From: Paenibacillus sp. FSL R7-0273
GTDB taxonomy: Bacteria; Bacillota; Bacilli; Paenibacillales; Paenibacillaceae
Direction of reading: 5' to 3'
DNA: 64,000 bases
Assembly: GCF_000758625.1 (NCBI RefSeq)
Contig: NZ_CP009283.1
Span: 509,501-573,500, forward strand
Part shown: positions 6,684-59,439 of the stretch, piece after piece
How the letters are laid out: each line of letters begins with the position of its first letter
Position numbering within the stretch: position 1 is the stretch's first letter
Notes under the pieces: generated by a model
The model's database searches: none
What the model was told of the DNA's origin: nothing
The model's input: only the letters and a program-made list of their open reading frames with translations
Position numbers and translations under genes: made by a program

Positions 6684-6869
6684 TAGGTGGATTTTTTACA
6701 ACTAATTGTTCACCGGCGTTGGATTCAGGGAGATTAGTGGTGAAAAGGTCACTTAATTTAAGCTGCTATCTCCAAAAAGGGCCGATCGGCTTGATATAGG
6801 TGACCTTTTTCCAACTAAATGCTGAAATTGAGCCTTAGAGACTGAAATAGGTGTCGAAAATCCAACTAA
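6684..6869. repeat. four-core palindromic repeat array, class TAGGTG/CAACTAA (locus 1)
   Basis: Four 22-base cores sit at 6684-6705, 6734-6755, 6797-6818 and 6848-6869. Each begins TAGGTG or a variant, has an A/T-rich centre and ends CAACTAA or a variant; the outer six bases form a near-palindrome. The second core is inverted relative to the others. Centre-to-centre spacings are 50, 63 and 51 bases. The array lies between the convergent xpt and lipid-kinase genes. The same core and almost the same layout recur at 29.3-29.5 kb. Function unknown. Confidence 0.85.
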
Positions 6870-6908
6870 ATTCCGGGTGGACGGGCTAGCATGCCCGGTT
6901 GTACTGGC

Positions 6909-7168
6909 CGTTGGCGAGCCGTCTATCGCCGCTGTAGGGGCGAAGTCTATACTGGTTGCCGCTGGCGAGCTGTCTATCGCTGGTGGAGAGGCGAGGCGCT
7001 ATGGACTGTACTGGCATAACGATCAAACCAGCAAGCTGGCTGCAACAATGCAGGCAGCCTGCTGTGGCAGCCCGTGCCTGTCCCGTAGCTGTGTGCCCGC
7101 CGCCCACGTCAGCCGTCTGCCGCACGGATCAGCCGTTCGCCGGGGCACGTGCTCGCCCGCCGCACGGG
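6909..7168. repeat. GC-rich degenerate direct repeats at the 3' side of the lipid-kinase gene
   Basis: A GGCGAG...GTCTATCGC segment at 6913 recurs at 6964, again 51 bases apart. Further downstream GCCCGCCGC with a following GTCAGCCG recurs at 7095 and 7155 (60 bases). No ribosome site or plausible gene was found on either strand, so this appears to be non-coding repeat debris. Confidence 0.55.
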
Positions 7169-8122
7169 TCAGCCGCTCGCCTGGCAGGAGCCGGCGGCGC
7201 CGGACCCGCCGTGCGCCGCAGCGGCCAGCGGCGTCAGCACGCGCAGCGCGCCCGGCTCGCAGCGCACCGCCAGCGGCGCTGTGCCCAGCGGCTCGCCGTC
7301 GCCGATGGCGTGCCGCGGCTGCGCGAAGCGGACCGCTACGCTGCGTCCGCGCAGCATTGTCACGAAGGGCAGCGCCACATGCGTGCCCTTCAGCAGCGTC
7401 GGGAACAGCCGCAGCACCTGCGCGCGGCTGCACCCGTGCACGACGCAGACGTCGAGCCGGCCGTCGCCCGTCTCTGCCTGCGGGCAGATCAGCAGCCCGC
7501 CGCCATAGCTTGGCAGGTTGCAGACCGAGACGAGCCAGGCCTGGTCAAAGGCCTGCTCCTTGCCGTCGAGGGTCACGCTCACGCGGCAGGGCTTAAAGGT
7601 AATCAGCGTATGCAGAATGCCGATGATATAAGCCAGCTGACCGGCGCCGACGGCATTGCACAGCCGCTTGTACCGGCTGTTGTTCACGTTCACGGCCACC
7701 TGGGCATCGAAGCCGCTGGCGACGGCCGTCAGCGTCAGGCCGCCGGTGCCGGCGAGCAGATCCGCCTCCAGGCAGCGGTCCTGCAGCGCAGCATCCAGTG
7801 CTGCCTCCGTTGCCAGCGGGATGCCGAACCCGCGCGCCGTATCATTGCCTGAACCGGCGGGAATCACGGCCAGCGGAACGCCCCGCCGCCGCAGCGCGCC
7901 AAGCACGCTGTGGATCGTGCCGTCGCCGCCGATAAGGATGGCGGCGCGCCAGTCCTCGCGGCGGGCGAGGGCATGCAGCACCTGCTCCTCTGCTTCTGCG
8001 GCGCTTTGGGTAAACAGCGGTTCATATGCGATACCGCGCGCCTTCAGCATGCCTTCGACGCTCTGCCAGGTGCGCTGCCCGGCACCGCCGCCGGAACGCG
8101 GATTTATAATCAGTAAATACAT
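7169..8122 (-). CDS. diacylglycerol kinase-family lipid kinase
   Basis: A soluble lipid kinase of the DagK/YegS family that phosphorylates diacylglycerol or a related membrane lipid. The N-terminal catalytic domain shows the phosphate-binding opening YLLIINPRSGGG, the GGDGT signature and PAGSGNDTARG. The C-terminal beta-sandwich domain follows. I placed the start at the ATG with GGAGGAGC upstream (317 residues); an upstream ATG at 8167 lacks a ribosome site. The last ~25 residues are Ala/Gly-rich and low in complexity. The gene is strikingly GC-rich, which leaves long open frames on the opposite strand that are not genes. Confidence 0.92.
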   Translation of the reverse strand: MYLLIINPRSGGGAGQRTWQSVEGMLKARGIAYEPLFTQSAAEAEEQVLHALARREDWRAAILIGGDGTIHSVLGALRRRGVPLAVIPAGSGNDTARGFGIPLATEAALDAALQDRCLEADLLAGTGGLTLTAVASGFDAQVAVNVNNSRYKRLCNAVGAGQLAYIIGILHTLITFKPCRVSVTLDGKEQAFDQAWLVSVCNLPSYGGGLLICPQAETGDGRLDVCVVHGCSRAQVLRLFPTLLKGTHVALPFVTMLRGRSVAVRFAQPRHAIGDGEPLGTAPLAVRCEPGALRVLTPLAAAAHGGSGAAGSCQASG

Positions 8123-8228
8123 GGATGCTCCTCCAGCCTGTAAAGTCCTTGAGTGTACTGATTTCATTGTAAGGAGTAGACAGGCAAAAGGGAATCACAA
8201 TTACATGGCAGCGGCGGTGCACACCCAT

Positions 8229-8567
8229 TTACAGCTGGCGGAGCTGACTTTCCGCGAGATCGCCTGCCAAGGGCAGCTTATACCACCTGCCGCCCAGGGA
8301 ATGAAAGAGCATCAGCAGCCAGACGGAGAAGGCGAGCAGCGAGAGAATAGCACCGACAAAACCGCCGATCAGCGGAATGAAGCCGCTGATGACATGGGCA
8401 ACCATCAGCACGCCGAAGGCAATCAGGGACTGCAGGGCATGGAAAAGCACGAAGCGGCTGCGCTTCTCCAGCGCCAGGAACACGACAGGTCCGACAAAAG
8501 GAAGGAAGTAACAGACAGCGGCAGCGATATTCTCGGGCAGTCCGGTGGACGATTTGAACGGGGACAT
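8229..8567 (-). CDS. DUF4870-family small membrane protein
   Basis: A 112-residue protein with three hydrophobic segments: NIAAAVCYFLPFVGPVVFLAL, a central segment around FHALQSLIAFGVLM, and a C-terminal one around GAILSLLAFSVWLLML. The pattern, with a conserved Arg/Phe-His region after the first helix, matches DUF4870/Tic20-like proteins. The ATG has AAGGAGA nine bases upstream. The molecular function is unknown. It lies on the same strand as the lipid kinase, with a 106-bp gap. Confidence 0.85.
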   Translation of the reverse strand: MSPFKSSTGLPENIAAAVCYFLPFVGPVVFLALEKRSRFVLFHALQSLIAFGVLMVAHVISGFIPLIGGFVGAILSLLAFSVWLLMLFHSLGGRWYKLPLAGDLAESQLRQL

Positions 8568-8698
8568 AGTGCTCACTCTCCTTGTACTTGGAGAAGAAGG
8601 CGGGAATCTGGCGCCCGGCACACAGGCGGGGCCACGTTCCCTGCTCCTTCCTTACTAGGAGCCTATGATTTGCAGATACAAAGTATGTGAAGCAGGCT

Positions 8699-9718
8699 TC
8701 AGGGATTCATTGCCGGAATAATATGCTGTTCAAGCAGCCTGCGCGGATTCCTCCAGCGGCTTACTGCGCTTTCGGCGGTAAAAACAACTGCAGAATCCAG
8801 CTCAGGCAGCAGCCAGAGCTGCTGGCCCCCGTGGCCGTGGGCGAGTACGTAAGGCTGCCCGCTTATGCGGCCGTTCCAGAACTGGTAGCCGTAATCCCCG
8901 TAGGCAGGATAGCCGTCTGTCTGCTTGCTGAAGGCCTCTTCCAGCCAGCTTTGCGGAATCACCTGCCGTCCCTCATAAAGGCCTCCTCCGAGCAGGCAGA
9001 TGCCGAGCTTGGCTATATCCCTCGAGGTCAGGGAGAGCCCGATGTGCCCCATACTGTGTCCCTCCGGGCTGGGCAGCCAGGCGGTGTGTTTGATGCCAAG
9101 GGGGCCGAACAGATGCTGCCGGGCATAGCTGAATGCATCCTGTCCTGTGCCTTCGCTCAGAATGACAGAGAGCAGATGCGAATCGCTGCTGCGGTACTGG
9201 AAGCAGCCTATATTTTCTGCATCCAGCGGTAAATTAAGAATGAACTGCACCCACCGGCGGCTGCGCTGCAGATTGCGGACAAGCGGCTCGCCAAGTTTGC
9301 TGCCGGTGATCCAGCGGAACCCCGAGGTCATAGACAGCAGATGGCGGAGTGTAAGCTGCATTAGCAGCGGATCAGATGGTGCGGGAAGATAGCTGCGGAG
9401 CGCATCCGGTACGGTGAGATGCGTTCCGGACAGCTCGCCTCTGCCGATGGCGATGCCTGTAAGCAGCGACACAACGCTTTTGGTAGCAGACCGCAGATCA
9501 TTCAGGCTGCCGGCATGATAATCCGCGTAATACTGTTCATATACCAGTTTCCCGCTGCGCACGACAAGCATACTATGCATTTTAGGGTACTCTTTGAGTA
9601 TCGTTTCATGAGCCTGCTCCAGCTGGCTGCTGCCCGTTCCTGTCTCCTCCGGTCTGGCCTGCGCCATCGCAGGCGCTGTATTATAAGGCGAGCTTAGCAA
9701 AGAAATCCGGTTGTCCAT
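8699..9718 (-). CDS. serine hydrolase, beta-lactamase/penicillin-binding fold
   Basis: A class C beta-lactamase-like serine hydrolase. Counting from the ATG with AAGGGAGA upstream (339 residues), the catalytic SxxK is S77-A-T-K80, the second motif is the Tyr at 175 in YRSS, and the third is HGHGG at ~294-298, in place of KTG. There is no signal peptide, so it is probably cytoplasmic. Likely activities are esterase or D-aminopeptidase rather than beta-lactam resistance; this is inference from the family. Confidence 0.9.
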   Translation of the reverse strand: MDNRISLLSSPYNTAPAMAQARPEETGTGSSQLEQAHETILKEYPKMHSMLVVRSGKLVYEQYYADYHAGSLNDLRSATKSVVSLLTGIAIGRGELSGTHLTVPDALRSYLPAPSDPLLMQLTLRHLLSMTSGFRWITGSKLGEPLVRNLQRSRRWVQFILNLPLDAENIGCFQYRSSDSHLLSVILSEGTGQDAFSYARQHLFGPLGIKHTAWLPSPEGHSMGHIGLSLTSRDIAKLGICLLGGGLYEGRQVIPQSWLEEAFSKQTDGYPAYGDYGYQFWNGRISGQPYVLAHGHGGQQLWLLPELDSAVVFTAESAVSRWRNPRRLLEQHIIPAMNP

Positions 9719-9914
9719 AGTGTCTCCCTTCGGTATAGCTGCAGGCACGGATGCACTCCGGGTCAGGAGGATGCAGCCGTTCAGCTTGGGTGCGGATAGT
9801 GTATTTTAACCAAATACCCGCAATCTCACCTGCTGTGGGAGACATAAATTTTCACAAAATTCCATACGCATATTTTACAAGGAAAGGTGGAACTTGGCCT
9901 TGAATATGATACAA

Positions 9915-10123
9915 TAAGACGATAAGGCCCGAAAGGAGTGATTCAGCAAGTGGCTCTTCGGGTAAGTAAAGTGTCAAGATGTCTATACCTTAAGGCGTCT
10001 TACTCTCAGCCCAATTCACGACGAACCTGCTTCACCGGCAAGGCGGACCTCCAGAACTCTGGTACGGCAGTCTAGGCGGATAAATGCAAGCTACGTATGT
10101 GTTACGGTTCTTATCTTGCATTT
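9915..10123 (+). ncRNA. candidate structured leader RNA upstream of the 62-residue gene
   Basis: The sequence TAAGACG at 9915-9921 pairs perfectly with CGTCTTA at 9996-10002, enclosing a second perfect stem, CCCGAA (9928-9933) with TTCGGG (9957-9962). Further down AAATGCAAG (10082-10090) pairs with CTTGCATTT (10115-10123). Together they suggest a folded 5' leader. A possible sigma-H-like promoter (AGGAAAG, 12 bases, CTTGAAT) lies just upstream. I cannot match it to a known riboswitch class. Confidence 0.45.
9950..10075 (+). CDS. possible 41-codon ORF inside the leader
   Basis: A GTG-initiated frame of 41 codons follows AAGGAG at 11 bases (an in-frame GTG at 9938 overlaps the site). The predicted peptide is basic and Ser/Arg-rich with two cysteines and resembles nothing I know. 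It overlaps the stems described for the leader, so it may be a leader peptide or only a chance frame. Confidence 0.25.
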   Translation: MALRVSKVSRCLYLKASYSQPNSRRTCFTGKADLQNSGTAV

Positions 10124-10198
10124 CGAGGTTACGGCGGACTTTTCATCATGCATTCTCAACGGAGCATTCATTTTCAATGTTTTGGGAGGGAACTGATC

Positions 10199-10387
10199 AT
10201 GGCAAGTAAAGGTCATAACGAAGTCAAGGAAAGTCTTAGGGAAATGACACGCATTTTCCGGCCCAAAGATCCCAAGAAATTTGTAAAGGAGTACGTCCGG
10301 AAATATCGGATCACAGGAGGCTATGAAGAAGAGCTGACTATGGTCGTGGAACATGAGATGGGCAGGATTAACTCATCTGTCTCCTGA
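10199..10387 (+). CDS. unrecognised 62-residue basic protein
   Basis: The ATG follows GGGAGGGAACTG at a good distance. The product is small, soluble, highly charged and probably helical (runs such as EVKESLREMTRIF and PKKFVKEYVRKY). It has no cysteines, signal peptide or membrane segment. I do not recognise it. It is preceded by a ~280-base region with several inverted repeats, which suggests regulated expression, and followed by a terminator. Confidence 0.7.
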   Translation: MASKGHNEVKESLREMTRIFRPKDPKKFVKEYVRKYRITGGYEEELTMVVEHEMGRINSSVS

Positions 10388-10454
10388 TCTGCACAGGATA
10401 GTGTTCTTAATTGATGACATGTAATCTGCAACCACATCCATGAGGATTCTCATA

Positions 10455-10498
10455 AACCGTGCCCGGCTGAACGATGCTGCTGGATACGGTTTTTTTTG
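10455..10498 (+). terminator. intrinsic terminator after the 62-residue gene
   Basis: AACCGT (10455-10460) pairs with ACGGTT, extended inside by a CCGGC/GCTGG helix, and is followed by eight T residues. Confidence 0.75.
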
Positions 10499-10575
10499 CT
10501 TACTTTTGCCGGAAATATTGTACATAATCTTGCCGGATAGTCAAGTGGCGTAGTTTAGCCTGTCGCAATATGTAT

Positions 10576-10626: not shown

Positions 10627-10687
10627 AAGCTGATAATGACAAGCTTTTTTGCTATAAAAAAAGTATTTGTGAACTTGCTGTGAACGA

Positions 10688-10716: not shown

Positions 10717-10784
10717 AATAGTGATTGTTATAATTGACAGGAAAATCCTCTGATCTACGAAAACAGGAGAAGCGGGGTTGATCA

Positions 10785-13798: not shown

Positions 13799-13804
13799 GC
13801 AGGG

Positions 13805-15864: not shown

Positions 15865-16329
15865 ATGGATATCTTTACAGTGTTTCCAACGATCAGCACA
15901 TCGTTCATCGTAATCAGTGCGGTGCTGGTGGCGATCGGCTGGAGACAGATCATCGTGGGCAAACGCGAAGCGCATAAGAAAACAATGTTCGCCGCCGCTG
16001 TAGCGGCTACCCTGTTTTTCATTGTGTACATGTCTAGAACAATATTTGTAGGTAATACATCCTGGGGCGGGCCGGATCACCTGTCGACGCTGTATCACGT
16101 CTTTCTGATCTTCCATATCGTGCTTGCTACGGTAGCCGCGGTGTTCGGAATTACCACACTGGTGTGGGGCTATCAGGCTAAATACGCGAAGCACCGCAAG
16201 CTGGGCAGAATCACGGCAGTCACCTGGTTCGTTACAGCTATCACAGGAGTTGCGGTATATGTGCTGCTGTACATATTTTATCCGGGCGGCCATACCAAGC
16301 CGGTCTGGGATGCCATCTGGGGCTTCTAA
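15865..16329 (+). CDS. DUF420 membrane protein (YozB/CtaM-like)
   Basis: A 154-residue protein with four hydrophobic helices and the conserved HKKTM and STLYHVFLIFHI histidine motifs of DUF420. The Staphylococcus homologue CtaM is required for haem-copper oxidase activity, which fits its position as the last gene of the oxidase cluster. CGAGGAGG precedes the ATG. Confidence 0.9.
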   Translation: MDIFTVFPTISTSFIVISAVLVAIGWRQIIVGKREAHKKTMFAAAVAATLFFIVYMSRTIFVGNTSWGGPDHLSTLYHVFLIFHIVLATVAAVFGITTLVWGYQAKYAKHRKLGRITAVTWFVTAITGVAVYVLLYIFYPGGHTKPVWDAIWGF

Positions 16330-16448: not shown

Positions 16449-16890
16449 TAGAGGGAAAAATCCCTTTGATGGTGCCCGCAGGAGGGTGGATTGGCTGAAA
16501 TAGAGGGAAAAATCCCCCTGATGGTGCTCGCAAGAGGGTGGCTTGGGCGAAATAGAGGGAAAAATCCCTTTGATGGTGCCCGCAGGAGGGTGAATGGGGC
16601 GAAATAGAGGGAAAAATCCCTTTGATGGTGCCCGCAGGAGGGTGGATTGGGCGAAATAGAGGGAAAAATCCCTTTGATGGCTCTCGCAGGAGGGTAGATT
16701 GGGCGAAATAGAGGGAAAAATCCCTTTGATGGTGCCCGCAGGAAGGTGAGTTGGGGTAAATAGAGGGAAAAATCCCTTTGATGGTGCCCGCAAGAGGGTG
16801 GCTTGGGCGAAATAGAGGGAAAAATCCCTTTGATGGTGCCCGCAGGAGGGTGGATTGGCCAAAATAGAGGGAGAAATCCTTTTAGTGGTC
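16449..16890. repeat. 52-bp tandem array, nine units, class AGGGAAAAATCCCT
   Basis: Nine units begin at 16449, 16501, 16553, 16605, 16657, 16709, 16761, 16813 and 16865: exactly 52 bases each time. Every unit carries the core AGGGAAAAATCCCT (five-pair stem, four-A loop) or a slight variant, then a GATGGTGCCCGCAGGAGGGTG-like linker with a few changes. It lies between the convergent DUF420 and MBL genes. The lack of unit-to-unit variable spacers excludes CRISPR. Confidence 0.95.
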
Positions 16891-16921
16891 CTCTCTAAAT
16901 TCAGCTTTAACAGCCACGTCT

Positions 16922-17420
16922 GCCAACCAAGCATTCAAACCGCCCGTTCCCTTGTAACCTGACTTTAAGTAGGGCATGCTCCAATTCTCAGTCCGACCAA
17001 CCAGCATTCGCTAACCCCAGACACTATCGATGAAGTTCGCCAACCTAGCATTCGAACCGCCCGTTCCCTTGTAACCTGACTTTAAGTAGGGCATGCTCCA
17101 ATCCTCAGTCCGATCAACCAGCATTCGCTAACCCCAGACACTATCGATTAAGTCCGCCAACCCTACGCCTCTATTAGCCGCGTCCGCCAACACAGCCTGC
17201 GAATCGCCGCCATCCATCTAACTTTGTCTTTAAGTAGCGTATCCGCTACCCTTTGGTCCGAGCGACCAGCCCCTTCACCAACTCCCCCTGCCTTTATCCA
17301 CCACGTCCGCCAACACAGAATCCCAGTTGCCTGTCCCCGTGTAACCTGTCTTTAAGCAGCGCATCCGCCAATCCTCAGTCCGACCAACCAGCACCCGCTA
17401 ATCCCGCTAATCGCAGTTAA
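16922..17420. repeat. tandem repeats of 117-123 bp, decaying
   Basis: Units begin with GCCAAC at 16922, 17039, 17156 (only ~30 bases long), 17186 and 17309. The first two are nearly identical over 117 bases; the later two are more diverged, at a 123-base interval. All contain a TAACCTG/TTTAAG...GCAT segment and a CAGTCCGA.CAACCAGC-like segment. No open frame is conserved across copies, so it looks non-coding. Confidence 0.9.
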
Positions 17421-17519: not shown

Positions 17520-18302
17520 CTAGAACCGCACACTAAACCCGTTAAAATAGTGTGTACCTGTGCCAAACGATACCAGGTTGTTCTCCCGTAGCGTCATAAC
17601 CGCCCGCTCCACGTCAGCCATAATGCCGGGGTCCAGGCCCAGTGTGTTATGTGATCCGTAGATTCTGCTTACACCGGGTATCCCTGCAATCCGTTCCCAC
17701 GAACGTACCAGCTCCGAAGGGCTTGTCGATGGATAGAATGCATATACTGGCGTTTCATCGTACAGCAGGTCCCCTGTAAACAAATAGCCGGAAGTCGCCT
17801 CAAAAAAGCATAAATGTCCCGGTGAATGCCCCGGCGTATGTATAACCTCCACACTTCTCCCGCCCAGATCAATGATCTGGCCATCACTCAGCAGCCCGGC
17901 CGGCTTACCGCGATAAGGGGTATAGGCCGCAGCATCAAAGCCCGCAGGCAGCGGCAGGCTCAAATCCCGTACGAGATCTGCTCTAATCTGTTCGATAGAT
18001 AAGCCCTGTATGCCATGCTCCAGCCAGCTGCAGTCCTCCTCATGTACATATATTTCACTGAACAGCCCATGGCCCCCGATATGATCGGTGTGGACGTGGG
18101 TGGTGAGGACAGAGACCGGAAGTGTGGTCAGCCGGCGGGTTAGCTCCCGGATATTGCTGATGCCGAGTCCCGTGTCGATCAGGGCAGCCTTTTGCTGCCC
18201 GAGCAGCAGGAAGGAATGGACCTTCTCCCAGTGTCCGTATTCGCTGATGGCAAAGGTCCGTGCATCGATGGGCGTCACCGTAAACCATGGATGATTAAGC
18301 AT
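17520..18302 (-). CDS. MBL-fold metallo-hydrolase
   Basis: A 260-residue metallo-beta-lactamase-fold enzyme. The metal-binding signature is HVHTDHIGG, followed by the histidine of HTPGHSPGH and the aspartate of FTGDLLYDE, so both metal sites look intact. A C-terminal SHN motif is present. There is no signal peptide. AAGGGGG precedes the ATG. The substrate cannot be inferred; members include glyoxalase II-like and lactonase-like enzymes. Confidence 0.9.
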   Translation of the reverse strand: MLNHPWFTVTPIDARTFAISEYGHWEKVHSFLLLGQQKAALIDTGLGISNIRELTRRLTTLPVSVLTTHVHTDHIGGHGLFSEIYVHEEDCSWLEHGIQGLSIEQIRADLVRDLSLPLPAGFDAAAYTPYRGKPAGLLSDGQIIDLGGRSVEVIHTPGHSPGHLCFFEATSGYLFTGDLLYDETPVYAFYPSTSPSELVRSWERIAGIPGVSRIYGSHNTLGLDPGIMADVERAVMTLRENNLVSFGTGTHYFNGFSVRF

Positions 18303-24717: not shown

Positions 24718-24736
24718 AAGATAACTACATATGAAA

Positions 24737-24925
24737 TCCGCTTAATTTCCGTAACGGAAAGCGGGGGAACCAACAACCGGAGGCTGCGGGCAAGCAGGCG
24801 GGGCCGGTTATGGGGTGAATCCTTGAGTCTGTGAGAAGCGCTGAAGCTTCCTGCAGAGGACAGGTAGGGCGACTCTCAACGCCCGAATCCGGCAGCTAAC
24901 CTCGTAAGCGTATTGCAGAGAGGAT
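24737..24925 (+). promoter_or_regulatory. cyclic di-AMP riboswitch (ydaO/yuaA class)
   Basis: The conserved elements of the class appear in order: CGCTTAATTTCCG...CGGAAAGCGGGGGAACC at the 5' side, GGGGTGAATC in the middle, AGGGCGACTCTCAACGCCC, then GAATCCGGCAGCTAACC and CTCGTAAGCG at the 3' side, which closes the outer helix. Ligand binding usually promotes termination, so high c-di-AMP should lower expression. The terminator at 24950 and the orphan gene at 25035 lie downstream. Confidence 0.93.
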
Positions 24926-24949
24926 CAGTATATTGTGACCGTTAACCGG

Positions 24950-28206: not shown

Positions 28207-29124
28207 GTGGTTGACTATAAAGATTCGGGGTTGCTGGACAACCTGTTTGAAGGGCAGGAGCAGAAATCGGTAAGTGTGCTTCCTGCGAAAATGGTGCTGT
28301 TTGAGCACTTGGCTGAAGACCTGACGGCTGCGGAGGTGGAAGATATGCTGCTTCCGTTCGCGTTCGAGGAAGCGCTGTGCCGTGACATCGGCGCCGGGCT
28401 GGTCCCGCCGTGCCTCCACCTCTGGAGCCATCCCGGAGGCGTGGCGCTGGGACTGCGGGACAGCAGGCTGCCCCATGCCGCCGAGGGGATGGCCGGGCTG
28501 GAGCGGGCCGGCTACCGCGCGGCTGTCCGCCATTCCGGCGGGGCGGCCGTGCCGCTCGACACAGGCGTAGTCAATGTGTCGCTTATTCTTCCGAAAGCCC
28601 CGGGCAAGCTGGACTTTCACGATGATTTCCGGCTGCTGGCTTCGCTCATAGCCGAAGCCGCAGCTGCCAGCCATCCACAGGCGGCTGCACGGATCAGGGC
28701 AGGCGAAATCACCGGGTCGTACTGCCCCGGTGATTTCGACCTGGCCATCGGCGGCCGCAAGTTCTGCGGCATCGCCCAGCGCAGGCAGAGCGGCGCGTAC
28801 TTCGTGCACGCGTTCGTGGTGGTCTCCGGCTCCGGGCGGGAGCGCGGAGAGCTGATCCGCGGATTCTACGAGACTGCGTCCGGAGGGGACGAGTCACTGG
28901 ACTATCCGCGGGTCCGCCCGGAGACGATCGCCGCGCTCGGCGAGCTGGGCGGCCCGGCTGCGGCGGCGGTGTACGCCGCAGGCATCCGGCAGGCTGCAGC
29001 CCGCAGGGGTGTGCAGCTGACTCCTGCCGGCAGGCTGCGGCAGGAGACCGGCTATGATCTCCAGTACAGCGATCCGCGTGTGCTGGAGACAGCAGCGATG
29101 CTGCGGCAGCGCTATGCCCGCTGA
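28207..29124 (+). CDS. lipL: octanoyl-[GcvH]:protein N-octanoyltransferase
   Basis: An amidotransferase of the LplA/LipB fold that moves octanoyl from GcvH to lipoyl domains of E2 subunits. Diagnostic motifs: RHSGGAAVPLDTGVVNVSLI, GSYCPGDFDLAIGG with the catalytic Cys173, and the Lys of GGRKFCGIAQRR. Length (305) and motif order match LipL of B. subtilis more than LplA ligases. GTG start with AAGGGGA upstream. It is a single-gene unit followed by the repeat-bearing gap. Confidence 0.92.
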   Translation: MVDYKDSGLLDNLFEGQEQKSVSVLPAKMVLFEHLAEDLTAAEVEDMLLPFAFEEALCRDIGAGLVPPCLHLWSHPGGVALGLRDSRLPHAAEGMAGLERAGYRAAVRHSGGAAVPLDTGVVNVSLILPKAPGKLDFHDDFRLLASLIAEAAAASHPQAAARIRAGEITGSYCPGDFDLAIGGRKFCGIAQRRQSGAYFVHAFVVVSGSGRERGELIRGFYETASGGDESLDYPRVRPETIAALGELGGPAAAAVYAAGIRQAAARRGVQLTPAGRLRQETGYDLQYSDPRVLETAAMLRQRYAR

Positions 29125-29315
29125 GCAGGCGGGCTCTGCAGTACTTGACCGTTCGCCGGTTGCCGGCCGGTCCGGCTCCGGAGGAAGCTTCGCCATTTGA
29201 AGCAAGCACCTTCAAAAGCCGGGGAGGCCCAGAAAGCCCGGACAGTCCGGGAAATCCGGGGAGTGGAAGGTCTAGATAGTCCGGCGATGACTCTGGGATT
29301 GCACGGCTAATTGAG

Positions 29316-29501
29316 TTAATTAAAAAAACGACACCTAATTCACTGCTGAGCCCGGTAACCGGTAAGTTAATTGTAAAAAAGCCACCTAATTTCGCCAAAA
29401 TGGCCTCCAAAGCGGGAATGGGCCGAAATAGGTGGCGTTTTTACAACTAATAGTCATATTCTTCGAGAAATACTGAAATTAGGTGGCGAAAATTCAACTA
29501 A
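29316..29501. repeat. four-core palindromic repeat array, class TAGGTG/CAACTAA (locus 2)
   Basis: Cores at 29316-29337, 29367-29388, 29429-29450 and 29480-29501; the first two are inverted relative to the last two, so the whole array is a large palindrome. Centre spacings are 51, 62 and 51 bases. The cores match those at 6.68-6.87 kb, and so does the layout, apart from the orientation of the first core. It lies between the convergent lipL and nitrilase-family genes. Confidence 0.9.
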
Positions 29502-29526
29502 ATGCCGGCCGGGCGGCGGTCCGGAT

Positions 29527-29625
29527 TTAATATCCCGGCTTGATGCAGCAAAGCCGCTGTTTAATATCCCGGCATTATGCAGCAAAGCCGGTATTCAATA
29601 TCGCGGCATCATGCAGCCTCCGCAG
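29527..29625. repeat. 34-bp tandem repeat, about three units
   Basis: AATATCCCGGC-type units start at 29529, 29563 and 29597, with GATGCAGCAAAGCCG-like second halves. The interval is 34 bases both times. Immediately 3' of the nitrilase-family gene; non-coding. Confidence 0.85.
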
Positions 29626-29635: not shown

Positions 29636-30415
29636 CTAAGAATACAGCTCCGGCCGGCGGTCGGCGAAGATCGGAATCTGCTGACGTACCTCGCGGACCT
29701 TAAACAAATCGATTTCCCCCGTCAAAATCTCCTCTCCCTCTCCGGCTTCTCCTATTACATCACCCCAAGGATCAATAATCATTGAATGTCCGGCAAAGCT
29801 GTTCGCCGGATCAGCCCCGGCCCGGTTGCAGGCGGCAACATAGCACTGGTTCTCAATAGCCCGGCTGATCAGCAGGGCGCGCCAGTGGGCAAGGCGCGGC
29901 TTGGGCCATTCGGCGCTGATGAACAGGATTTCGGCTCCGCTGGCCGTGTGGGCGCGTACCCATTCCGGGAAGCGGATATCGTAGCAGATCAGCCCGGCGC
30001 ACAGGGTATTGTCCAGGGTGAACAGACCCTTTGCTTCCCCGGGCTGCAGATAGAGATGCTCATCCATCAGCCGGAACAGATGGAGCTTGCTGTATTCTCC
30101 GGCCAGCCCGCCGCTGCGGTCAAAAATGTACATGCTGTTGGTAATCCCGGCCGGCTGTCTGCTGGCAACAGAGCCGGCGACAATATGGATGCCGAGCTCC
30201 CGCGCCAGGCCTGACATCATTGCTTTGACCCCCTGCCCCTCAGGATCTGCGATACCTTCAAGCCGGGTAAGATCATAGCCGGTGGTCCAGAGCTCCGGCA
30301 GAAGCACACAGCCGGTTCCGGCTGCTGCCGCTTCACGGATGCGGCGTTCTGCTGCTGCATAATTAGCTGGGGGATTGCCGAATGCTATATCAAGCTGGAT
30401 GAGGGAAATTTTCAT
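29636..30415 (-). CDS. nitrilase-superfamily amidase, MtnU/omega-amidase-like
   Basis: A carbon-nitrogen hydrolase with the full catalytic triad: Glu41 (LLPELW), Lys110 (EYSKLHLF) and Cys144 (GLICYDIRFPE). At 259 residues it is the size of omega-amidases such as MtnU (YkrU), which hydrolyses 2-oxo-acid amides such as alpha-ketoglutaramate. An MtnE-like aminotransferase lies 2 kb away, which supports that reading. AGGAGG precedes the ATG. Confidence 0.87.
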   Translation of the reverse strand: MKISLIQLDIAFGNPPANYAAAERRIREAAAAGTGCVLLPELWTTGYDLTRLEGIADPEGQGVKAMMSGLARELGIHIVAGSVASRQPAGITNSMYIFDRSGGLAGEYSKLHLFRLMDEHLYLQPGEAKGLFTLDNTLCAGLICYDIRFPEWVRAHTASGAEILFISAEWPKPRLAHWRALLISRAIENQCYVAACNRAGADPANSFAGHSMIIDPWGDVIGEAGEGEEILTGEIDLFKVREVRQQIPIFADRRPELYS

Positions 30416-53369: not shown

Positions 53370-55799
53370 TTGTTTAACGACAAAGAAAGCTTCAAGAAGG
53401 TATTCCGCGAGACACTGATCAGTAAACTCGGCAAGCCGCTGGAAGAAGCATCGAATGGTGAAGTGTACAAGATTTTGGGCAATATGATCCGTGAGAATGC
53501 AGGGAAGAACTGGGCTGATACAAACCACAAATACAAGATCAGCCAGGAGAAGCAGGTCTATTACTTCTCAATGGAATTTCTGATCGGCAGGCTGCTTGGC
53601 AATAACCTGCTGAATATGGGTGTGCTGGAGGTAGTGCGCGATGGTCTGCAGGAGCTGGGCTTCGATCTGCGCGAGGTAGAGGAGGAAGAAGCGGATGCGG
53701 GGCTGGGCAATGGCGGCCTCGGCCGGCTGGCTGCCTGTTTTCTCGATTCACTCGCCTCCCTGCAGTATGCGGGACATGGCTGCGGCATCCGTTACAAATA
53801 CGGGTTGTTTGAGCAAAAGATCGTAGACGGCTATCAGGTAGAGCTGCCTGACTACTGGCTGCAGAACGACAATGTATGGGAAGTGCGCCGGGAAGACAAA
53901 CAGGTGGAGGTCCGTTTCTGGGGCGGGATTGAGACCCGTGAAGAAAACGGCGAGCTGAAATTTGAGCATAGGGATTATGAAGCGGTACGCGCAGTGCCTT
54001 ACGATGTTCCGGTGATCGGCGCTGACCGCAAGCATGTTAATACGCTGCGCAACTGGAGTGCCGAGTCGATTACCCCGGCTTCCCGGATGTCCGGCTCGCT
54101 GGCCGGCTCGGATTATCACAAGTTCCTGGAGTATAAACGCTCCGTGGAATCCATTTCTGAATTCCTGTACCCGGATGACTCGCAGTATGAGGGCAAGCTG
54201 CTCCGGCTGAAGCAGCAGTACTTCCTGTGCAGTGCAGGCGTACAGAGTATTCTGCGCACCTTCAGCAAGACCGGAGCGCCGATTGAAGCATTGCCGGACA
54301 AAGTAGCGCTCCATATCAATGATACCCACCCGACCCTGCTGATTCCCGAGCTGATGCGGATTCTGATGGATGAGCACGGCCTCGGCTGGAACACAGCCTG
54401 GGATATGACGACCCGTATGGTTTCGTATACGAATCATACGATCCTCAGCGAAGCGCTTGAGAAATGGCCGATGAATATGGTCAAGGAGCTGCTGCCGCGG
54501 ATTTTCCTGATTATCGAGGAGATCAATGCCCGGTTTTGCGGTGAGCTGATGAGCAAATACCCCGGCGACCAGAACCGGATTAACCAGATGGCGATCATTC
54601 ATGATGATCAGGTTCGGATGGCGAACCTTGCGATTGTGGCCAGCCACAGTGTTAACGGGGTAGCCGCACTGCATACCGAAATTTTGCAGAAGCGTGAAAT
54701 GCGCTTGTTCAATGAGATGTATCCGCACCGGTTCAATAACAAAACAAATGGCATCACACACCGCCGCTGGCTGATGCATGCCAATCCTGAGCTTACCAGT
54801 CTGATCAATGATTCGATCGGTACACGCTGGATTCATCAGCCGCAGGAGATGATCGGGCTGATTAAATATAGTGAGGATGCCTCCTTCCAGGAGCAGGTTG
54901 CGGCGATCAAACGGCGCAATAAGCTGCGGCTGGCCGAGTACATCACGAAGAAGCACGGCGTTCAGGTTGACCCGGATTCAATCTTTGACGTGCAGGTCAA
55001 GCGGCTGCATGCCTATAAGCGCCAGCTGCTGAACATTCTGCATATTATGCACCTGTATAACCAGCTGAAGGATAACCCGTCTATGGATATGGTACCGCGT
55101 ACCTTTATCTTCGGGGCGAAGGCGGCGCCAAGCTATCATCTGGCGAAGCGGATCATCAAGCTGATTAACACGGTAGCTGATGTTGTGAACAAGGACCCTG
55201 ATATTAAAGGAAAGATCCGCATCTTCTTCCTGGAGAACTATTCAGTCTCGCTGGCAGAGAAGATTATTCCGGCAGCTGATGTCAGTGAACAGATCTCTAC
55301 AGCAAGTAAGGAAGCCTCCGGTACCGGGAATATGAAATTCATGATGAACGGTGCACTGACTATCGGTACGATGGACGGGGCAAATGTGGAGATGCATGAA
55401 ATGGTCGGTGACAGCAATATGTTCCTGTTCGGGCTGCGGGCGGAGCAGGTCATGGATTATCATCAGTTCGGCGGCTATCATTCCCGCGATATCTATTATG
55501 GCGACGGGCGTGTTAAGGAAGTGCTGGACCAGCTGGTAACGCCTGGGCCAATCTGCTGCAATACCCAGGAATTTGATACACTGTACCAGTCGCTGCTCGA
55601 TAATAATGACGAATTTTTTGTGCTTAAGGATTTTGCCGGCTATGTAGAGACACACGTCAAAATCGACCTTGCCTACCGCAATCAGCGTGAATGGCTGAAG
55701 AAGTCGATTGTCAACATCGGGCACTCCGGCAAATTCTCCAGCGACAATACGATCAGCCGCTATGCGGCTGAAATCTGGAGAATCAATCCGGTCAGATAA
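53370..55799 (+). CDS. glgP: glycogen phosphorylase
   Basis: An 809-residue GT35 phosphorylase releasing glucose 1-phosphate from glycogen. PLP-binding Lys656 is in EASGTGNMKFMMNGA; other landmarks are GNGGLGRLAACF, HINDTHPT and NGITHRRW. TTG start nine bases after CTGGAGG. It follows glgD by 104 bp. glgB and glgA, usually part of the same operon in Bacillus, are not here. Confidence 0.96.
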   Translation: MFNDKESFKKVFRETLISKLGKPLEEASNGEVYKILGNMIRENAGKNWADTNHKYKISQEKQVYYFSMEFLIGRLLGNNLLNMGVLEVVRDGLQELGFDLREVEEEEADAGLGNGGLGRLAACFLDSLASLQYAGHGCGIRYKYGLFEQKIVDGYQVELPDYWLQNDNVWEVRREDKQVEVRFWGGIETREENGELKFEHRDYEAVRAVPYDVPVIGADRKHVNTLRNWSAESITPASRMSGSLAGSDYHKFLEYKRSVESISEFLYPDDSQYEGKLLRLKQQYFLCSAGVQSILRTFSKTGAPIEALPDKVALHINDTHPTLLIPELMRILMDEHGLGWNTAWDMTTRMVSYTNHTILSEALEKWPMNMVKELLPRIFLIIEEINARFCGELMSKYPGDQNRINQMAIIHDDQVRMANLAIVASHSVNGVAALHTEILQKREMRLFNEMYPHRFNNKTNGITHRRWLMHANPELTSLINDSIGTRWIHQPQEMIGLIKYSEDASFQEQVAAIKRRNKLRLAEYITKKHGVQVDPDSIFDVQVKRLHAYKRQLLNILHIMHLYNQLKDNPSMDMVPRTFIFGAKAAPSYHLAKRIIKLINTVADVVNKDPDIKGKIRIFFLENYSVSLAEKIIPAADVSEQISTASKEASGTGNMKFMMNGALTIGTMDGANVEMHEMVGDSNMFLFGLRAEQVMDYHQFGGYHSRDIYYGDGRVKEVLDQLVTPGPICCNTQEFDTLYQSLLDNNDEFFVLKDFAGYVETHVKIDLAYRNQREWLKKSIVNIGHSGKFSSDNTISRYAAEIWRINPVR

Positions 55800-55819
55800 T
55801 CAGCCTGTATGAAACAAAG

Positions 55820-55862
55820 AGGCCGCAGCAGATCAGGGAGTACCTGAATCTGCGGCGGCCTT
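55820..55862. terminator. probable bidirectional terminator
   Basis: AGGCCGC...AGAT..CAGG pairs with CCTG.ATCT..GCGGCCT around a short loop, with small bulges, between convergent genes. T runs are short. Confidence 0.6.
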
Positions 55863-55878
55863 ATCTGTGGGTGCCGGC

Positions 55879-56358
55879 TTACATTACTTCGGCAATCTTG
55901 GCTGCAAATCGCTCAAGAAAGCGCCGCTCCTCGTCATCAAACCGGTGCTTGAGCGGGCTGTCAATATCAAGCACACCGAGAAGCTGATCATCCTTGATCA
56001 GCGGGACGACAATCTCGCTGTTCGATGCGGCATCGCAGGCGATATGTCCCGGGAAGGCGTGGACATCGTCAACCACAAGCGTCCGGCGCTCTGCAGCAGA
56101 CGTTCCGCAGACTCCGCGGCCCAGCGGTATACGGATGCATGCCGGAAGCCCCTGAAACGGTCCGAGGACAAGCTCCTTGCCGTCAAATAAGTAGAATCCG
56201 GCCCAGTTGGTATCCGGCATAGAGAATTTGAGCAGCGCCGAAGCATTTGCCAGATTGGCAACTGCACTCGGCTCACCCTCGATCAGTGCGGCAAGCTGTG
56301 ACAGTACGGCTTCGAACCGTTCACTGCGTGTGCCGTCATAGGGCATTGCCTGAAACAT
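55879..56358 (-). CDS. free methionine-(R)-sulfoxide reductase (GAF domain)
   Basis: A 159-residue single GAF domain protein of the fRMsr/YtsP family. The three catalytic-region cysteines are visible: LPACIRIPLGRGVCG and HIACDAASNSEIVVP. It reduces free Met-R-sulfoxide using thioredoxin. AGGAAGGTG precedes the ATG. Confidence 0.92.
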   Translation of the reverse strand: MFQAMPYDGTRSERFEAVLSQLAALIEGEPSAVANLANASALLKFSMPDTNWAGFYLFDGKELVLGPFQGLPACIRIPLGRGVCGTSAAERRTLVVDDVHAFPGHIACDAASNSEIVVPLIKDDQLLGVLDIDSPLKHRFDDEERRFLERFAAKIAEVM

Positions 56359-56567
56359 GAAGCATCACCTTCCTGTACCTTGAATCAGTAATGAAAATAT
56401 AACTGTAAATAACACCATAGTACAGCCGGACTCGGCCCGTCAAGCTTTACCGTAATTTTGCATAAATCACAATAGAAGACTTATATGGAGCTGCGGCAGT
56501 GTTTCCGCATCCTTCTGCCAGGGTAATGCTTAATATATCATAGGCTCTTGGCCGGAAGGAGTGGAAT

Positions 56568-56864
56568 ATGCGCGCCGATGTACAGAATTTGTTCATAGGA
56601 ATCCATATGCTTTATATTGCACATGAGAGGGATTTGACACTGTCGGATATGCTGCCCGAGCTTGAGAACCTGGGATACCGGGTTGCGGAACGCGAAGTGA
56701 AGCAGGAGCTGGAGCGGCTTACCCAGGAAAACTTCCTGACTGCCCATGGCGATGCTTTCAGCATTACCGGTACGGGATTGGAAGAGTTCAAACATATTCA
56801 GGAAAAGCTTCAGGTGTTATGCTCTGAGGTGCTTACTCCGGCTCAGGCGGCAGCAAAGGCTTAA
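56568..56864 (+). CDS. unrecognised 98-residue winged-helix-like protein
   Basis: A small, mostly helical protein with a pattern like a winged helix (DLTLSDMLPELENLGY, AEREVKQELERLTQENFLT, then a short beta pair SITGTGLEEFKH). No metal site or signal peptide. CGGAAGGAGTG precedes the ATG. A DNA-binding role is possible, but the family is not recognised. Confidence 0.72.
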   Translation: MRADVQNLFIGIHMLYIAHERDLTLSDMLPELENLGYRVAEREVKQELERLTQENFLTAHGDAFSITGTGLEEFKHIQEKLQVLCSEVLTPAQAAAKA

Positions 56865-57082
56865 GATAAGTATAGGCCGGCTGGCTGGTTTATGTAAAAG
56901 AATGCAATGAATTATTCAATTTATGAGCAGCGTCAGTATCAGGGCGGTCTTCCGCCCGTGCGGCGCTTTTTGTCGTGCCTGGGCCGGCCGGGAATGTCAG
57001 ACTGGCTTGTTCTTCATTTGCTCGGGGAATCCTTACATATGATGTATACTTATTATATGAAGAGAGAGGGGAGCGGAAAATC

Positions 57083-57655
57083 GTGTATATTAGCGGCGGG
57101 GTAACCCCGGTACTGCGCGGAGCCAGAATGGAGCTGCACGCTATTGATGTATCTCATGCAGCAGCCTTGTATGAGATTTGGACCCATCCGGCGGTCGGCC
57201 GCTGGCTGGAAGCCCCGCCGCTGGCCTCGCCCGCTGATGCGGAGCAGCTGATCGGGCTGCTGCTGCAAATGTCCAGGGAAGAAGAAAGCCTGCGCTGGAG
57301 TATCGTTCTTCCGGACGGGAGGATCATCGGCAGCTGCGGCTATAACCAGTGGCAGCTGGCCGGAGCATACCGGGGAGAAATCGGCTGTGAGCTGTCACCA
57401 GATTGTTGGGGACAGGGTTATATGAGGGAGGCACTGGAGCTTATACTCGATTTTGGCTTCCGCACGATGGGGTTAAACCGGATTGAAGCGTTATGCCATC
57501 CCGGCAACACAAGGGCAGCCGGGCTGTTTAGTGCGCTGGGCTTTTTGCAGGAAGGGCTGCTGCGCCAATACAGGCATACCGGTACCGGCTTTCAGGATGC
57601 GGTATTGTTTGCCCTGCTGCGCAGTGACAGACCGATTAGCCGCTTAGGGATTTAG
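57083..57655 (+). CDS. GNAT N-acetyltransferase, RimJ/RimL-like
   Basis: A 190-residue GNAT enzyme: ARMELHAIDVSHAAALYEIW at the N-terminus, acetyl-CoA loop ELSPDCWGQGYMREAL, and the late motif LGFLQEGLLRQY. RimJ/RimL-type members acetylate protein N-termini or small amines. The GTG at 57083 has GAGGGGAG upstream. Confidence 0.88.
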   Translation: MYISGGVTPVLRGARMELHAIDVSHAAALYEIWTHPAVGRWLEAPPLASPADAEQLIGLLLQMSREEESLRWSIVLPDGRIIGSCGYNQWQLAGAYRGEIGCELSPDCWGQGYMREALELILDFGFRTMGLNRIEALCHPGNTRAAGLFSALGFLQEGLLRQYRHTGTGFQDAVLFALLRSDRPISRLGI

Positions 57656-57687
57656 CGTGATAATACATAGAGGGGATCTGGATTTCA

Positions 57688-59196
57688 TTGAGTACACCAG
57701 GAGCAAGAGAGCGCAAGCTTATATTAACAGGAGTTCTGCTGGCCACCTTTTTGGCTGCCATCGAGGGAACCGTTACCGGCCCGGCCGGACCGGCAATCGT
57801 CGGTGATTTTCAGGGCATCCAGTGGCTAAGCTGGATTTTTACTGCCTATTTGCTGACGATGGCTGTTACAACGCCGATATTCGGCAAGCTGAGCGATCTG
57901 ATCGGCCGTAAGCCGGTCTTTATGGGGGGAGCGGCTGTTTTCCTGCTGGGTTCCCTGCTGTGCGGGATTTCGCAGAGCATGGGGCAGCTGATCGTGTTCC
58001 GGGCCATTCAGGGTATCGGGGCTGGCGCGCTTATTCCGGTGACCTTTACGATTATCGGAGATATATACAGCATTAAGGAGCGTGCCAAGACACAGGGGCT
58101 GCTGAGCTCCGTCTGGGGAATTTCCTCGCTTGTGGGTCCGCTGCTGGGCGGTTATGTGGTTGATTATCTGAGCTGGCGCTGGGTGTTTGTATTTAATCTC
58201 CCCTTTGGCCTGCTGTCGATTCTATTTATCGCCCGTTACCTGAAGGAAGAAAAGGTAAAACGCACGGCGAAGATTGATGTGGCCGGGGTGCTGCTGTTCG
58301 CGGCAGGTGTAAGTGCGCTGCTGTTTGCCCTTACTGCAGACGGGCAGAATCTGGCATGGACCTCTCCGCTGCTGATTGGCCTGCTGGTTACAGCGGTTAT
58401 TTTACTGGGGATATTCCTCGTTGTGGAACGCCGCGCACCGGAGCCGATGCTTCCGCTGTCCCTGTTCTCCATCCGTAATATTGCCGTGTCGACGGGAGCC
58501 AATCTGCTGGTCAGCACTTTAATTATAGGCCTGTCCACCTATATACCGTTGTGGGTGCAGGGGGTGTTCGGCAAAAGCGCGGCGCTCTCCGGTCTGCTGC
58601 TGGCCCCGATGTCTGTCGGCTGGACGGTTGGCTCCATTGCCGGAGGCCGGATGATTCTGCGCGCCGGCTCGCGCCGGACAGGCATGCTGGGATTATCCCT
58701 TATTGCCGCAGGTTCGGTTGGACTTGCGTTCATGACTGCAGGTACCTCACAGCTGATGCTTGTGGTTCTCATGCTGTTCTGCGGCGTTGGATTCGGTTAT
58801 GCATCTACTGTATTCACCATTATTGCCCAGTCCTCCGTCGGGCATGAGCAGCGCGGCGCCTCGACAGCGCTGAATACCTTCACGCGCTCACTCGGTCAGA
58901 CGGTCGGAGTCGCGGTGTTCGGCTCCTGGCTGAATCTGAGCATCGCCAGGCAGCTGGCAGCTCAGCCGGGGACTGAGGTTAGCGGAGCTGATATCAGCAG
59001 CCTGCTGAACCCGCACGGCAGCAGCACACTGACCGGCGATGCCTGGAACAGCCTGCACGGAGCGCTGGAGGGAGGCCTGCATTCCCTGTTTATCATAATG
59101 GCTGTATTGGCTGTCCTGTCACTGATTATATCCTCGGGCTTGCGCCAGGGCCTGCCTTCGCTGGGTGAGGAGATTAAACAGGTGAAGGAAGCATAG
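57688..59196 (+). CDS. MFS multidrug exporter, EmrB/QacA (DHA2) family
   Basis: A 502-residue transporter with 14 transmembrane segments. DHA2 motifs: TGPAGPAIVGDFQG near helix 1, GKLSDLIGRKPVFM (motif A), IQGIGAGALIPVTF (motif B) and GPLLGGYVVDYLSWRWVF (motif C). Drug or metabolite export by proton antiport is expected. TTG start with GAGGGGAT upstream. It follows the GNAT gene by 32 bp. Confidence 0.93.
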   Translation: MSTPGARERKLILTGVLLATFLAAIEGTVTGPAGPAIVGDFQGIQWLSWIFTAYLLTMAVTTPIFGKLSDLIGRKPVFMGGAAVFLLGSLLCGISQSMGQLIVFRAIQGIGAGALIPVTFTIIGDIYSIKERAKTQGLLSSVWGISSLVGPLLGGYVVDYLSWRWVFVFNLPFGLLSILFIARYLKEEKVKRTAKIDVAGVLLFAAGVSALLFALTADGQNLAWTSPLLIGLLVTAVILLGIFLVVERRAPEPMLPLSLFSIRNIAVSTGANLLVSTLIIGLSTYIPLWVQGVFGKSAALSGLLLAPMSVGWTVGSIAGGRMILRAGSRRTGMLGLSLIAAGSVGLAFMTAGTSQLMLVVLMLFCGVGFGYASTVFTIIAQSSVGHEQRGASTALNTFTRSLGQTVGVAVFGSWLNLSIARQLAAQPGTEVSGADISSLLNPHGSSTLTGDAWNSLHGALEGGLHSLFIIMAVLAVLSLIISSGLRQGLPSLGEEIKQVKEA

Positions 59197-59232
59197 AGCA
59201 GGGCATAAACATTATATAGTGAGCCTTAAAAG

Positions 59233-59270
59233 AAACGGCTGCACTGTCCCTCAGGATAGTGCAGCCGTTT
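59233..59270. terminator. intrinsic terminator after the MFS gene
   Basis: A 13-bp perfect inverted repeat (59233-59245 with 59258-59270), followed by TTTGTT. Confidence 0.85.
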
Positions 59271-59319
59271 GTTATTAATACCGTTGAAATGCATTGCAAC
59301 TGGCGTGATGACCCCAAAC

Positions 59320-59439
59320 AACGGTAAAAGTACCGTTAAATTAAGCGAATCCGGCGGGCTGGCAGGAAACAACGGTAAAAGTACCGTTAAATTGAGCGAA
59401 TCCGGCGTGATGACAGGCAACAACAGTAAAAGTACCGTT
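59320..59439. repeat. 51-bp tandem array, three units, class AACGGTA/TACCGTT
   Basis: Perfect or near-perfect hairpin cores AACGGTAAAAGTACCGTT lie at 59320-59337, 59371-59388 and 59422-59439 (the last with one change), exactly 51 bases apart. Linkers share AAATT.AGCGAATCCGGCG. A decayed half-core with a similar linker lies one interval upstream (59279). The array sits between the convergent MFS and MarR genes. Confidence 0.95.

Follow-up and report, generated by a model that had tools for sequence, protein, structure and literature searches.

Four long gaps between convergent genes in the window (the whole stretch of 64,000 nucleotides analyzed here) carry short palindromic cores, which raises the question of what these arrays are and what sets their position and orientation. 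The original observation, that each of the four gaps has cores recurring every 51/52 bp, was confirmed by a pattern scan with reversed patterns as the chance control: over 2.04 Mb, and against 220 retained elements, the reversed patterns gave no matches for the array kinds B, D, and E and six for A. The A array (6679..6871, strand “.”), flanked by genes for a phosphoribosyltransferase-domain protein (5917..6519, +) and a diacylglycerol kinase-like (YegS type) protein (7169..8122, -), has four TAGGTG...CAACTAA elements of ~29 bp in the order +,-,+,+ (6679-6707, 6734-6763, 6792-6820, and 6843-6871; steps 50/63/51), with copies 2 and 3 forming a 30-nt inverted pair. Elements of the same family make up the C array (29314..29501, strand “.”), which lies between genes for a lipoyl protein ligase-like protein (28207..29124, +) and a carbon-nitrogen hydrolase (29636..30415, -) and has four copies in the canonical -,-,+,+ order (29314-29340, 29365-29391, 29426-29450, and 29477-29501; steps 51/62/51). 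The ~51-bp spacing is thus seen in A and C, but both are inverted-pair elements rather than plain direct arrays.

The two other arrays in the window are both oriented with replication. B (16449..16889, +), between genes for a DUF420 protein (15865..16329, +) and a metallo-beta-lactamase superfamily fold protein (17520..18302, -), comprises nine AGAGGGAAAAATCCCT-type cores with near-identical spacers; across 16449-16883 the first core is at 16450 and 8/8 intervals are exactly 52 bp. D (59302..59454, +) holds three AACGGTAAAAGTACCGTT-type cores (59320-59337, 59371-59388, and 59422-59439; step 51 bp) between an MFS transporter gene (57688..59196, +) and a MarR-family regulator gene (59534..60001, -). 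Read by eye, a probable decayed fourth D unit retains only the right arm TACCGTT (59279..59285, +), and a terminator-like hairpin with a T run (59236..59271, +) stands between the MFS gene and the array. The tandem repeats of 117 bp (16918-17162) and 34 bp (29525-29617) found near arrays are separate repeats.

The cores had been taken for three unrelated sequences, and this did not hold. One frame, GGNAAAARTNCC, is common to the B array at 16.4 kb, the D array at 59.3 kb, and E, a genome-wide family absent from the window; it is a hairpin (arm, GG-N-AAAA-R-T-N-CC, arm) within a unit of 51 or 52 bp, and the units follow one another head to tail. A/C (6.7 and 29.3 kb) are an inverted-pair form whose flanks and A/T center are, by eye, common to B/D/E. 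The predicted preference for ~51-bp spacing is present genome-wide: 51-52 bp leads the tandem-repeat periods of a 2 Mb genome sample (22 of 138 rows). Among arrays of the source genome (G000), B holds a modal period of 52 (20/22) while D and E hold 51 (15/15 and 37/37, respectively), so that unit length is family-specific. These cores turn up again at dozens of loci (134 exact copies of E; 83 of B and 54 of D at one mismatch or fewer), and the ~70 arrays seen come from one third of the genome. Overall, the arrays are a repeat class spread through the genus, plus the related inverted-pair form.

Spacers are array-specific, though the unit length is fixed. Those of B are near-identical within an array (89% TRF matches), and some old arrays, such as a D array at 235 kb, have diverged spacers. 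Variation within arrays is lower in cores than in spacers (E, 0.070 vs. 0.189; B, 0.039 vs. 0.167; D, 0.033 vs. 0.173), with the core values somewhat lowered because units were located via their cores. Higher-order tandem duplication occurs inside arrays (L193). A weak common pattern runs through the spacers of different arrays, which would be unexpected if each spacer were a captured piece of local flank; that origin was rejected when two empty sites compared by eye gave no clear match. A second conserved hairpin in the spacer was also rejected: single spacers are palindromic by eye, yet no covarying helix was found across the array units compared (58 of E, 22 of B, and 15 of D); z values near 3 for single pairs are what so large a number of pairs would give.

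The main new finding, invisible from one window, is the near-absolute polarity of B, D, and E relative to replication. With the origin taken as the contig start and the terminus as the point between 3.93 and 3.98 Mb where GC skew switches (a pattern search of the genome for dif gave no match), 67 of 69 B/D/E arrays are oriented with replication, including 33/33 in convergent gaps. This is well above the gene bias with replication (74.8%), and the arrays are distributed along both chromosome arms. Two run against replication: a B array at 1.875 Mb and, at 5.071 Mb, a weak D pair with 3 mismatches. Among lagging-strand genes, four of five B/D/E arrays still follow replication, antisense to those genes, which indicates that transcription does not set their orientation. 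In a second complete genome (G100), 19/19 arrays are oriented with replication (12 + 7, counted by hand); up to 2.87 Mb it has 49 + pairs, and its 22 - pairs begin at 3.985 Mb. The same holds for 14/14 pairs among the matches listed for G041, and one listed pair in G070 breaks the rule, unless its contig starts away from the origin. A/C elements have no clear polarity. Strand composition is disfavored as the source of polarity, as core 8-mers outside arrays range from moderate skew (up to 38 vs. 10 for GAGGGAAA) to none or the opposite, and even for the most skewed of the abundant 8-mers the share stops at 86%. The polarity of two of three array kinds suggests that a process linked to copying makes or keeps them.

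Placement among genes follows a looser rule. By hand count, our own gene calls place 11 pairs of convergent genes in the window (one pair overlapping and one at the window edge), matching the count of about eleven given before, and the arrays do occupy the four long gaps (337-1190 bp, with the other gaps at 147 bp or less). Confinement to convergent gaps holds within the window but not genome-wide, where many same-direction and a few divergent gaps hold arrays. Among 75 B/D/E clusters, 73 of them between called genes, 35 are convergent, 33 same-direction, 5 divergent, and 2 at stretch ends; ORFs consisting largely of array sequence had been masked, and some clusters are labeled same-direction because of an IS gene within the array. 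In an even sample outside the window, limited to gaps that measure 100 bp or more once the element is subtracted, arrays occupy 11/96 convergent, 6/495 same-direction, and 2/196 divergent gaps (odds ratio 11, p 1.7e-6), and A elements give a convergent odds ratio of 5.1. Thus, the convergent preference stands at about 11-fold for B/D/E, and it is an enrichment and not an exclusive placement.

Array presence differs widely between related genomes. The D gap is without a D array in 20/20 relatives keeping both neighbor genes, three of which hold an A element there, and the D array at 826 kb is absent in G100. Arms vary between genomes; the frame and the 51-bp step are kept. No stretch of the viral contigs matched the E pair pattern, and plasmids gave no match to one E array. 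One IS3-family element is present in eight copies, and six of these are inserted in B, D, or E arrays, a clustering with a chance probability of 3e-13 at 0.48% coverage. This element has HTH_Tnp_1 and rve matches above cut-off (OrfA with the HTH and OrfB with the rve DDE core) and 4-bp target repeats at 6/6 sites read. No coding elements other than IS3-type insertions were found within arrays.

Repeats of the REP kind are usually explained by RAYT transposases together with tolerance of convergent gaps. The arrays described here are REP-like in being intergenic, palindromic, high-copy, convergent-enriched, IS-targeted, and variably present between species. The REP/BIME/REPIN literature likewise describes high-copy short intergenic palindromes of several types per genome (PMC2817692, PMC3733652, PMC6006769, PMC1525189) that favor convergent and same-direction gaps and are targets of IS elements, IS3-family included; the convergent preference of REPs and the tandem reiteration of REP clusters with flanking DNA are reported in one of these sources (PMC3733652). 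A/C resemble REPINs as inverted doublets, whereas B/D/E run head to tail. Neither a GTAG nor a CGTC tag was found at the stem ends in the family consensus, where the flanks are, by eye, GAAAT-type. B/D/E further differ from these REPs in their fixed 51-52 bp unit and near-total replication polarity, and G000 differs in being without a RAYT. A resident RAYT as mover was ruled out there, with 0 PF01797 matches among 11 candidates scored. Across 43 same-genus genomes counted by hand, RAYT occurs in 7/17 with at least three frame matches vs. 15/26 without, and hence shows no association.

We propose, at a probability of roughly 0.45, that the arrays are REP-like elements that a strand-specific process coupled to the fork spreads or keeps. 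Arrays would arise, spread, or expand at the replication fork through a process for which the hairpin is most likely the substrate, at the stage when the lagging-strand template is exposed as single-stranded DNA. The candidate enzyme would be something other than a Y1/RAYT transposase, and it, or its footprint, may fix the 51-52 nt step. Convergent gaps would be the sites where such DNA is least harmful, and array length would then grow or shrink by ordinary unequal recombination. Polarity, the fixed unit, variable presence, arm swaps, IS targeting, and the higher-order repeats support this proposal, and the polarity exceptions, the common pattern in the spacers, the lack of a clear spacer-to-flank match at the two empty sites, the A/C elements without clear polarity, and the lower variability of cores argue against it. 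For IS200/IS605 elements, single-strand transposition on the lagging-strand template is described (PMC6006769), and such hairpin recognition on single-stranded DNA would yield replication polarity; however, the array-bearing genomes G000, G034, G078, and G107 have no PF01797 protein. The missing RAYT, the fixed unit, and the fork-following orientation make a fork-coupled origin or function directly testable, and array orientation would serve in these genomes as a natural marker of which way replication runs and of inversions in their past.

A tentative variant would treat the arrays as a new polar element distinct from REP, namely chromosome-wide, fork-oriented hairpin arrays with lineage-swapped arms, a constant frame, 51-52 bp unit, and polarity, and a putative strand-specific, replication-coupled enzyme. 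Tus-Ter and RTP fork barriers are polar relative to the fork, and polarity is the feature shown for these arrays, which lie along both arms and do not form a terminus trap. CRISPR loci share a conserved palindromic repeat and spacers of constant length, but the array spacers are nearly identical within an array and the loci are many and separate. BOX, RUP, and SPRITE, Firmicute repeats commoner between convergent genes and interpreted as parasitic in one study (PMC3049150), include BOX with tandem boxB modules; the modular A-B-C structure of BOX is not seen in these arrays, and the leading-strand share given there is 60.8-63.3%, mirroring gene bias, vs. 67/69 for B/D/E. A literature search, its coverage leaving out most subscription papers, found no paper with these repeats or their polarity described in its listing.

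The lower variability of cores relative to spacers could equally mean a selected binding site. On that account, which we consider unlikely, a putative host protein on each core would work together with a DNA translocase or with the fork as it passes, in fork pausing, loading, or directional translocation; the 51-52 bp step would keep bound units in phase, and wrongly oriented arrays would be harmful and lost. Near-absolute polarity and strict unit length fit as well as core conservation does. The great differences in presence between related genomes, the several core types in one genome, and the low number of arrays all speak against it, and with a near-symmetric palindromic site polarity would have to rest on the A-tract and flanks.

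Of the two meanings first proposed, a nucleoid or insulator array and paired 3′-UTR hairpins, neither is singled out by the observed spacing and placement, which came through the two refuting tests set for them, though in weaker form; convergent preference is reported for other repeats too. Sites for topology or nucleoid proteins at transcription collision zones would be analogous to BIME-2 of E. coli, which binds gyrase (cited in PMC2817692). Such a role is in keeping with the convergent enrichment of both B/D/E and A, yet it is improbable, as it does not predict replication polarity, 33 of the 75 clusters lie in same-direction gaps, and 85/96 convergent gaps have no array.

The 3′-UTR hairpins, as RNA elements that would stabilize or end transcripts from both sides, are very improbable, and for B/D/E this role is disfavored. 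They fit A and C, each of which folds into one long stem (6730-6825, z -3.56; 29360-29455, z -5.50), and they are also in line with an E stretch that has good folds on both strands (z -4.8 and -3.7) and with the preference for gaps downstream of genes. B and D fold weakly (z -0.7 to -2.1). Against an RNA role, orientation follows replication where genes oppose, the two variable stem pairs of E have only a mild excess of G.T (145) over A.C (104), 76 of the 93 distinct D units carry a fixed T x C mismatch in the stem, and 18 of 35 convergent cases have a terminator-like hairpin separating the leading gene from the array. Ordinary minisatellites, with polarity as a by-product of strand composition, are scarcely credible: higher-order duplication, drifting spacers, and the moderate skew of some core 8-mers would suit them, but other core 8-mers are little or oppositely biased, the same cores sit at dozens of loci, and each family keeps its unit length.

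Across the window (positions 509501-573500 of a single 7,288,921-bp contig), palindromic cores at 51- or 52-bp spacing, the central observation of the original prediction, were recovered both by direct reading and with repeat tools. The B array (16449-16883) comprises nine AGAGGGAAAAATCCCT-type cores at a step of 52 bp with near-identical spacers, and the D array (59302-59454) comprises three AACGGTAAAAGTACCGTT-type cores at a step of 51 bp, with the decayed right arm of a fourth read by eye at 59279-59285. The A (6679-6871) and C (29314-29501) arrays belong to a single TAGGTG...CAACTAA family that includes inverted members, its canonical arrangement being -,-,+,+ with spacings of 51/62/51. 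Based on our own gene calls (a simple in-frame hexamer model, no curated annotation), the window has 11 convergent pairs and, as proposed, the arrays occupy the four with long gaps. Two further tandem repeats adjoin arrays in the same gaps, one of 117 bp beside B (16918-17162, 2.1 copies, 93% matches) and one of 34 bp beside C (29525-29617, 2.7 copies), and a c-di-AMP riboswitch is located at 24729-24927 (90.8 bits).

The cores had been described as three unrelated sequences, a view that did not survive: B and D have a common frame, GGNAAAARTNCC, with a third head-to-tail family found outside the window (family E, ARAGGCAAAARTGCCT, 134 exact copies in the genome), and A/C resembles these by eye in its GAAAT / ATTCCGG-type flanks and A/T centre. 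With at most one mismatch, the genome holds 54 D, 83 B and 98 A cores, and reversed-pattern controls returned none genome-wide for B, D and E and one for A. The preference for a spacing of about 51 bases extends genome-wide, since a period of 51 or 52 was the largest TRF peak (22/138 rows, two rows describing a single array) when 100 evenly spread 20-kb stretches were sampled. Modal periods were 52 in 20/22 B arrays, 51 in 15/15 D and 37/37 E arrays, and 51 in 42/45 E arrays of relatives (at least one counted twice). With the pattern open to 36-66 bp, all E pairs among the matches listed were spaced at 50-52 bp except one at 61 bp; in the relative G100, a hand count gave 51 bp in 69 of 71 pairs and 52 bp in two. 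Spacers are array-specific but have weak common letters; this comparison covered 58 E, 22 B and 15 D units that remained once units alike at 85% or more had been merged. Within arrays, variation in core versus spacer was 0.070 vs 0.189 (E), 0.039 vs 0.167 (B) and 0.033 vs 0.173 (D), the core values being somewhat lowered because units were located via their cores, and some relatives' arrays being counted twice. One B array (~2.634 Mb) contains a higher-order repeat of three units (156 bp), a sign of unequal exchange.

Matches to B, D and E lie on the + strand from the contig start to ~3.5 Mb and on the - strand past ~4.2 Mb, with exceptions, and GC skew switches between 3.93 and 3.98 Mb. In the even sample plus 36 stretches picked for holding matches, 72 of 75 clusters are oriented with replication (terminus set at 4.08 Mb); because E positions were the 100 of 134 listed, up to 5.057 Mb, the stretches picked for matches contain too few E arrays from the left arm. 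Merging arrays split by insertion sequences (IS) gives 69 arrays (terminus set at 3.95 Mb), 67 with replication and two against, one of them a B array (1.875 Mb) and the other a D pair at 5.071 Mb that is weak, with three mismatches. All 33 arrays in convergent gaps run with replication (p = 2e-10). In same-direction gaps, 24/25 arrays beside leading-strand genes are sense and 4/5 beside lagging-strand genes are antisense; thus, replication and not transcription predicts orientation. Genes themselves are 74.8% leading. For the pneumococcal BOX, RUP and SPRITE elements, PMC3049150 gives 60.8-63.3% leading, compared with 67/69 B/D/E arrays here. A/C elements have no clear polarity (36 with replication, 23 against). 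One array close to the terminus (4.09 Mb), its orientation assigned by majority, has core loops in both directions while its flanks by eye all read -, as if individual loops had flipped.

The polarity recurs in relatives. G100 has 49 + pairs, the last at 2.87 Mb, and 22 - pairs, the first at 3.985 Mb, forming 12 + and 7 - arrays by hand count. The rule is obeyed by 7/7 pairs in G072 and by every pair among the matches listed in G041 (14/14), G083 (7 listed out of 8 pairs) and G074 (13 listed out of 19); G001, G058 and G090 had few or no positions among those listed. G070 violates the rule unless its contig start is not the origin: among the matches listed, its arrays read + at 0.56 and 1.36 Mb but - at 1.49 Mb.

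Placement exclusively in convergent gaps, as in the window, gave way to a strong enrichment. Over 99 stretches without the window, counting gaps that measure 100 bp or more after the element itself is subtracted, B/D/E arrays occur in 11/96 convergent, 6/495 same-direction and 2/196 divergent gaps (odds ratio 11, p = 1.7e-6), and A elements in 11/96, 17/496 and 0/196, respectively. The 75 clusters include 35 in convergent, 33 in same-direction and 5 in divergent gaps and 2 at stretch ends, although some same-direction and divergent labels stem from IS genes within arrays. Terminator-like hairpins, called by our own simple rule, were found at the 35 convergent clusters on the leading-gene side in 18, on the lagging-gene side in 6 and on neither in 15.

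E pairs are present in 12/100 same-genus genomes, and the general frame, paired at 32-62 bp, in 40/295 genomes of a family draw. A D-pair pattern had a single named match, Paenibacillus ihuae, which marks the source genome as Paenibacillus-like. At least three frame matches occur by hand count in 20 genomes, 17/43 same-genus (the source included) and three outside (G173, G267, G281); one or two matches per genome is near the reversed-pattern control level. Arms among the matches listed include GGC/GCC, GGG/CCC, GGT/ACC and also mismatched GGT/CCC, so stem pairing is common and not strict. Genes for RAYT, the Y1 (PF01797) transposase tied to REP repeats, do not track the arrays in the 43 same-genus genomes (hand count: 7/17 with arrays, 15/26 without). 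The arrays are likely a class of REP-like repeats that lacks RAYT, keeps a fixed unit length and is polar with respect to replication. The data directly establish the cores, their unit length and polarity, the preference for certain gaps, the targeting by IS and the differing presence among species; the polarity suggests that origin or upkeep could be fork-coupled and strand-specific. The main competing explanation is that the arrays bind protein in a polar fashion. Use as RNA, in line with the 3'-UTR hairpins originally suggested, is disfavoured for B/D/E and may apply to A and C (fold z -3.6 and -5.5). The same folding analysis gave -0.7 to -2.1 for B and D, whereas both strands of an E stretch scored well (-4.8 and -3.7), which leaves little doubt that hairpins form there.

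As a REP-like class, the arrays differ in presence between species. Both neighbours of the D gap are kept in 20 of 29 relatives compared (the other nine have another neighbour), and none of the 20 has a D array there. Fifteen have nothing, G003 has one frame-like and G097 one A-like match, and in G100, G078 and G107 the same convergent gap holds a different family, A-type elements. Likewise, G100 lacks the D array of 18 units that the source genome has at 826 kb. An E array at 838 kb is common to both genomes, with similar spacers, and is IS-split in G100.

Arrays are also targeted by a 1391-bp IS3-family element with eight identical copies in the source genome. Six of these split arrays (two E, three B, one D), at 243555-244815, 1844311-1845571, 1875647-1876907, 2567320-2568580, 4880127-4881387 and 5280554-5281814, with 4-bp target repeats; in E arrays the insertion falls within the A-rich loop, in B and D arrays next to the core. 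The seventh lies between A-family matches at 2346940 and 2348448, and the eighth at 4.597 Mb. At 0.48% coverage, the probability of at least six of eight copies falling in arrays by chance is 3e-13.
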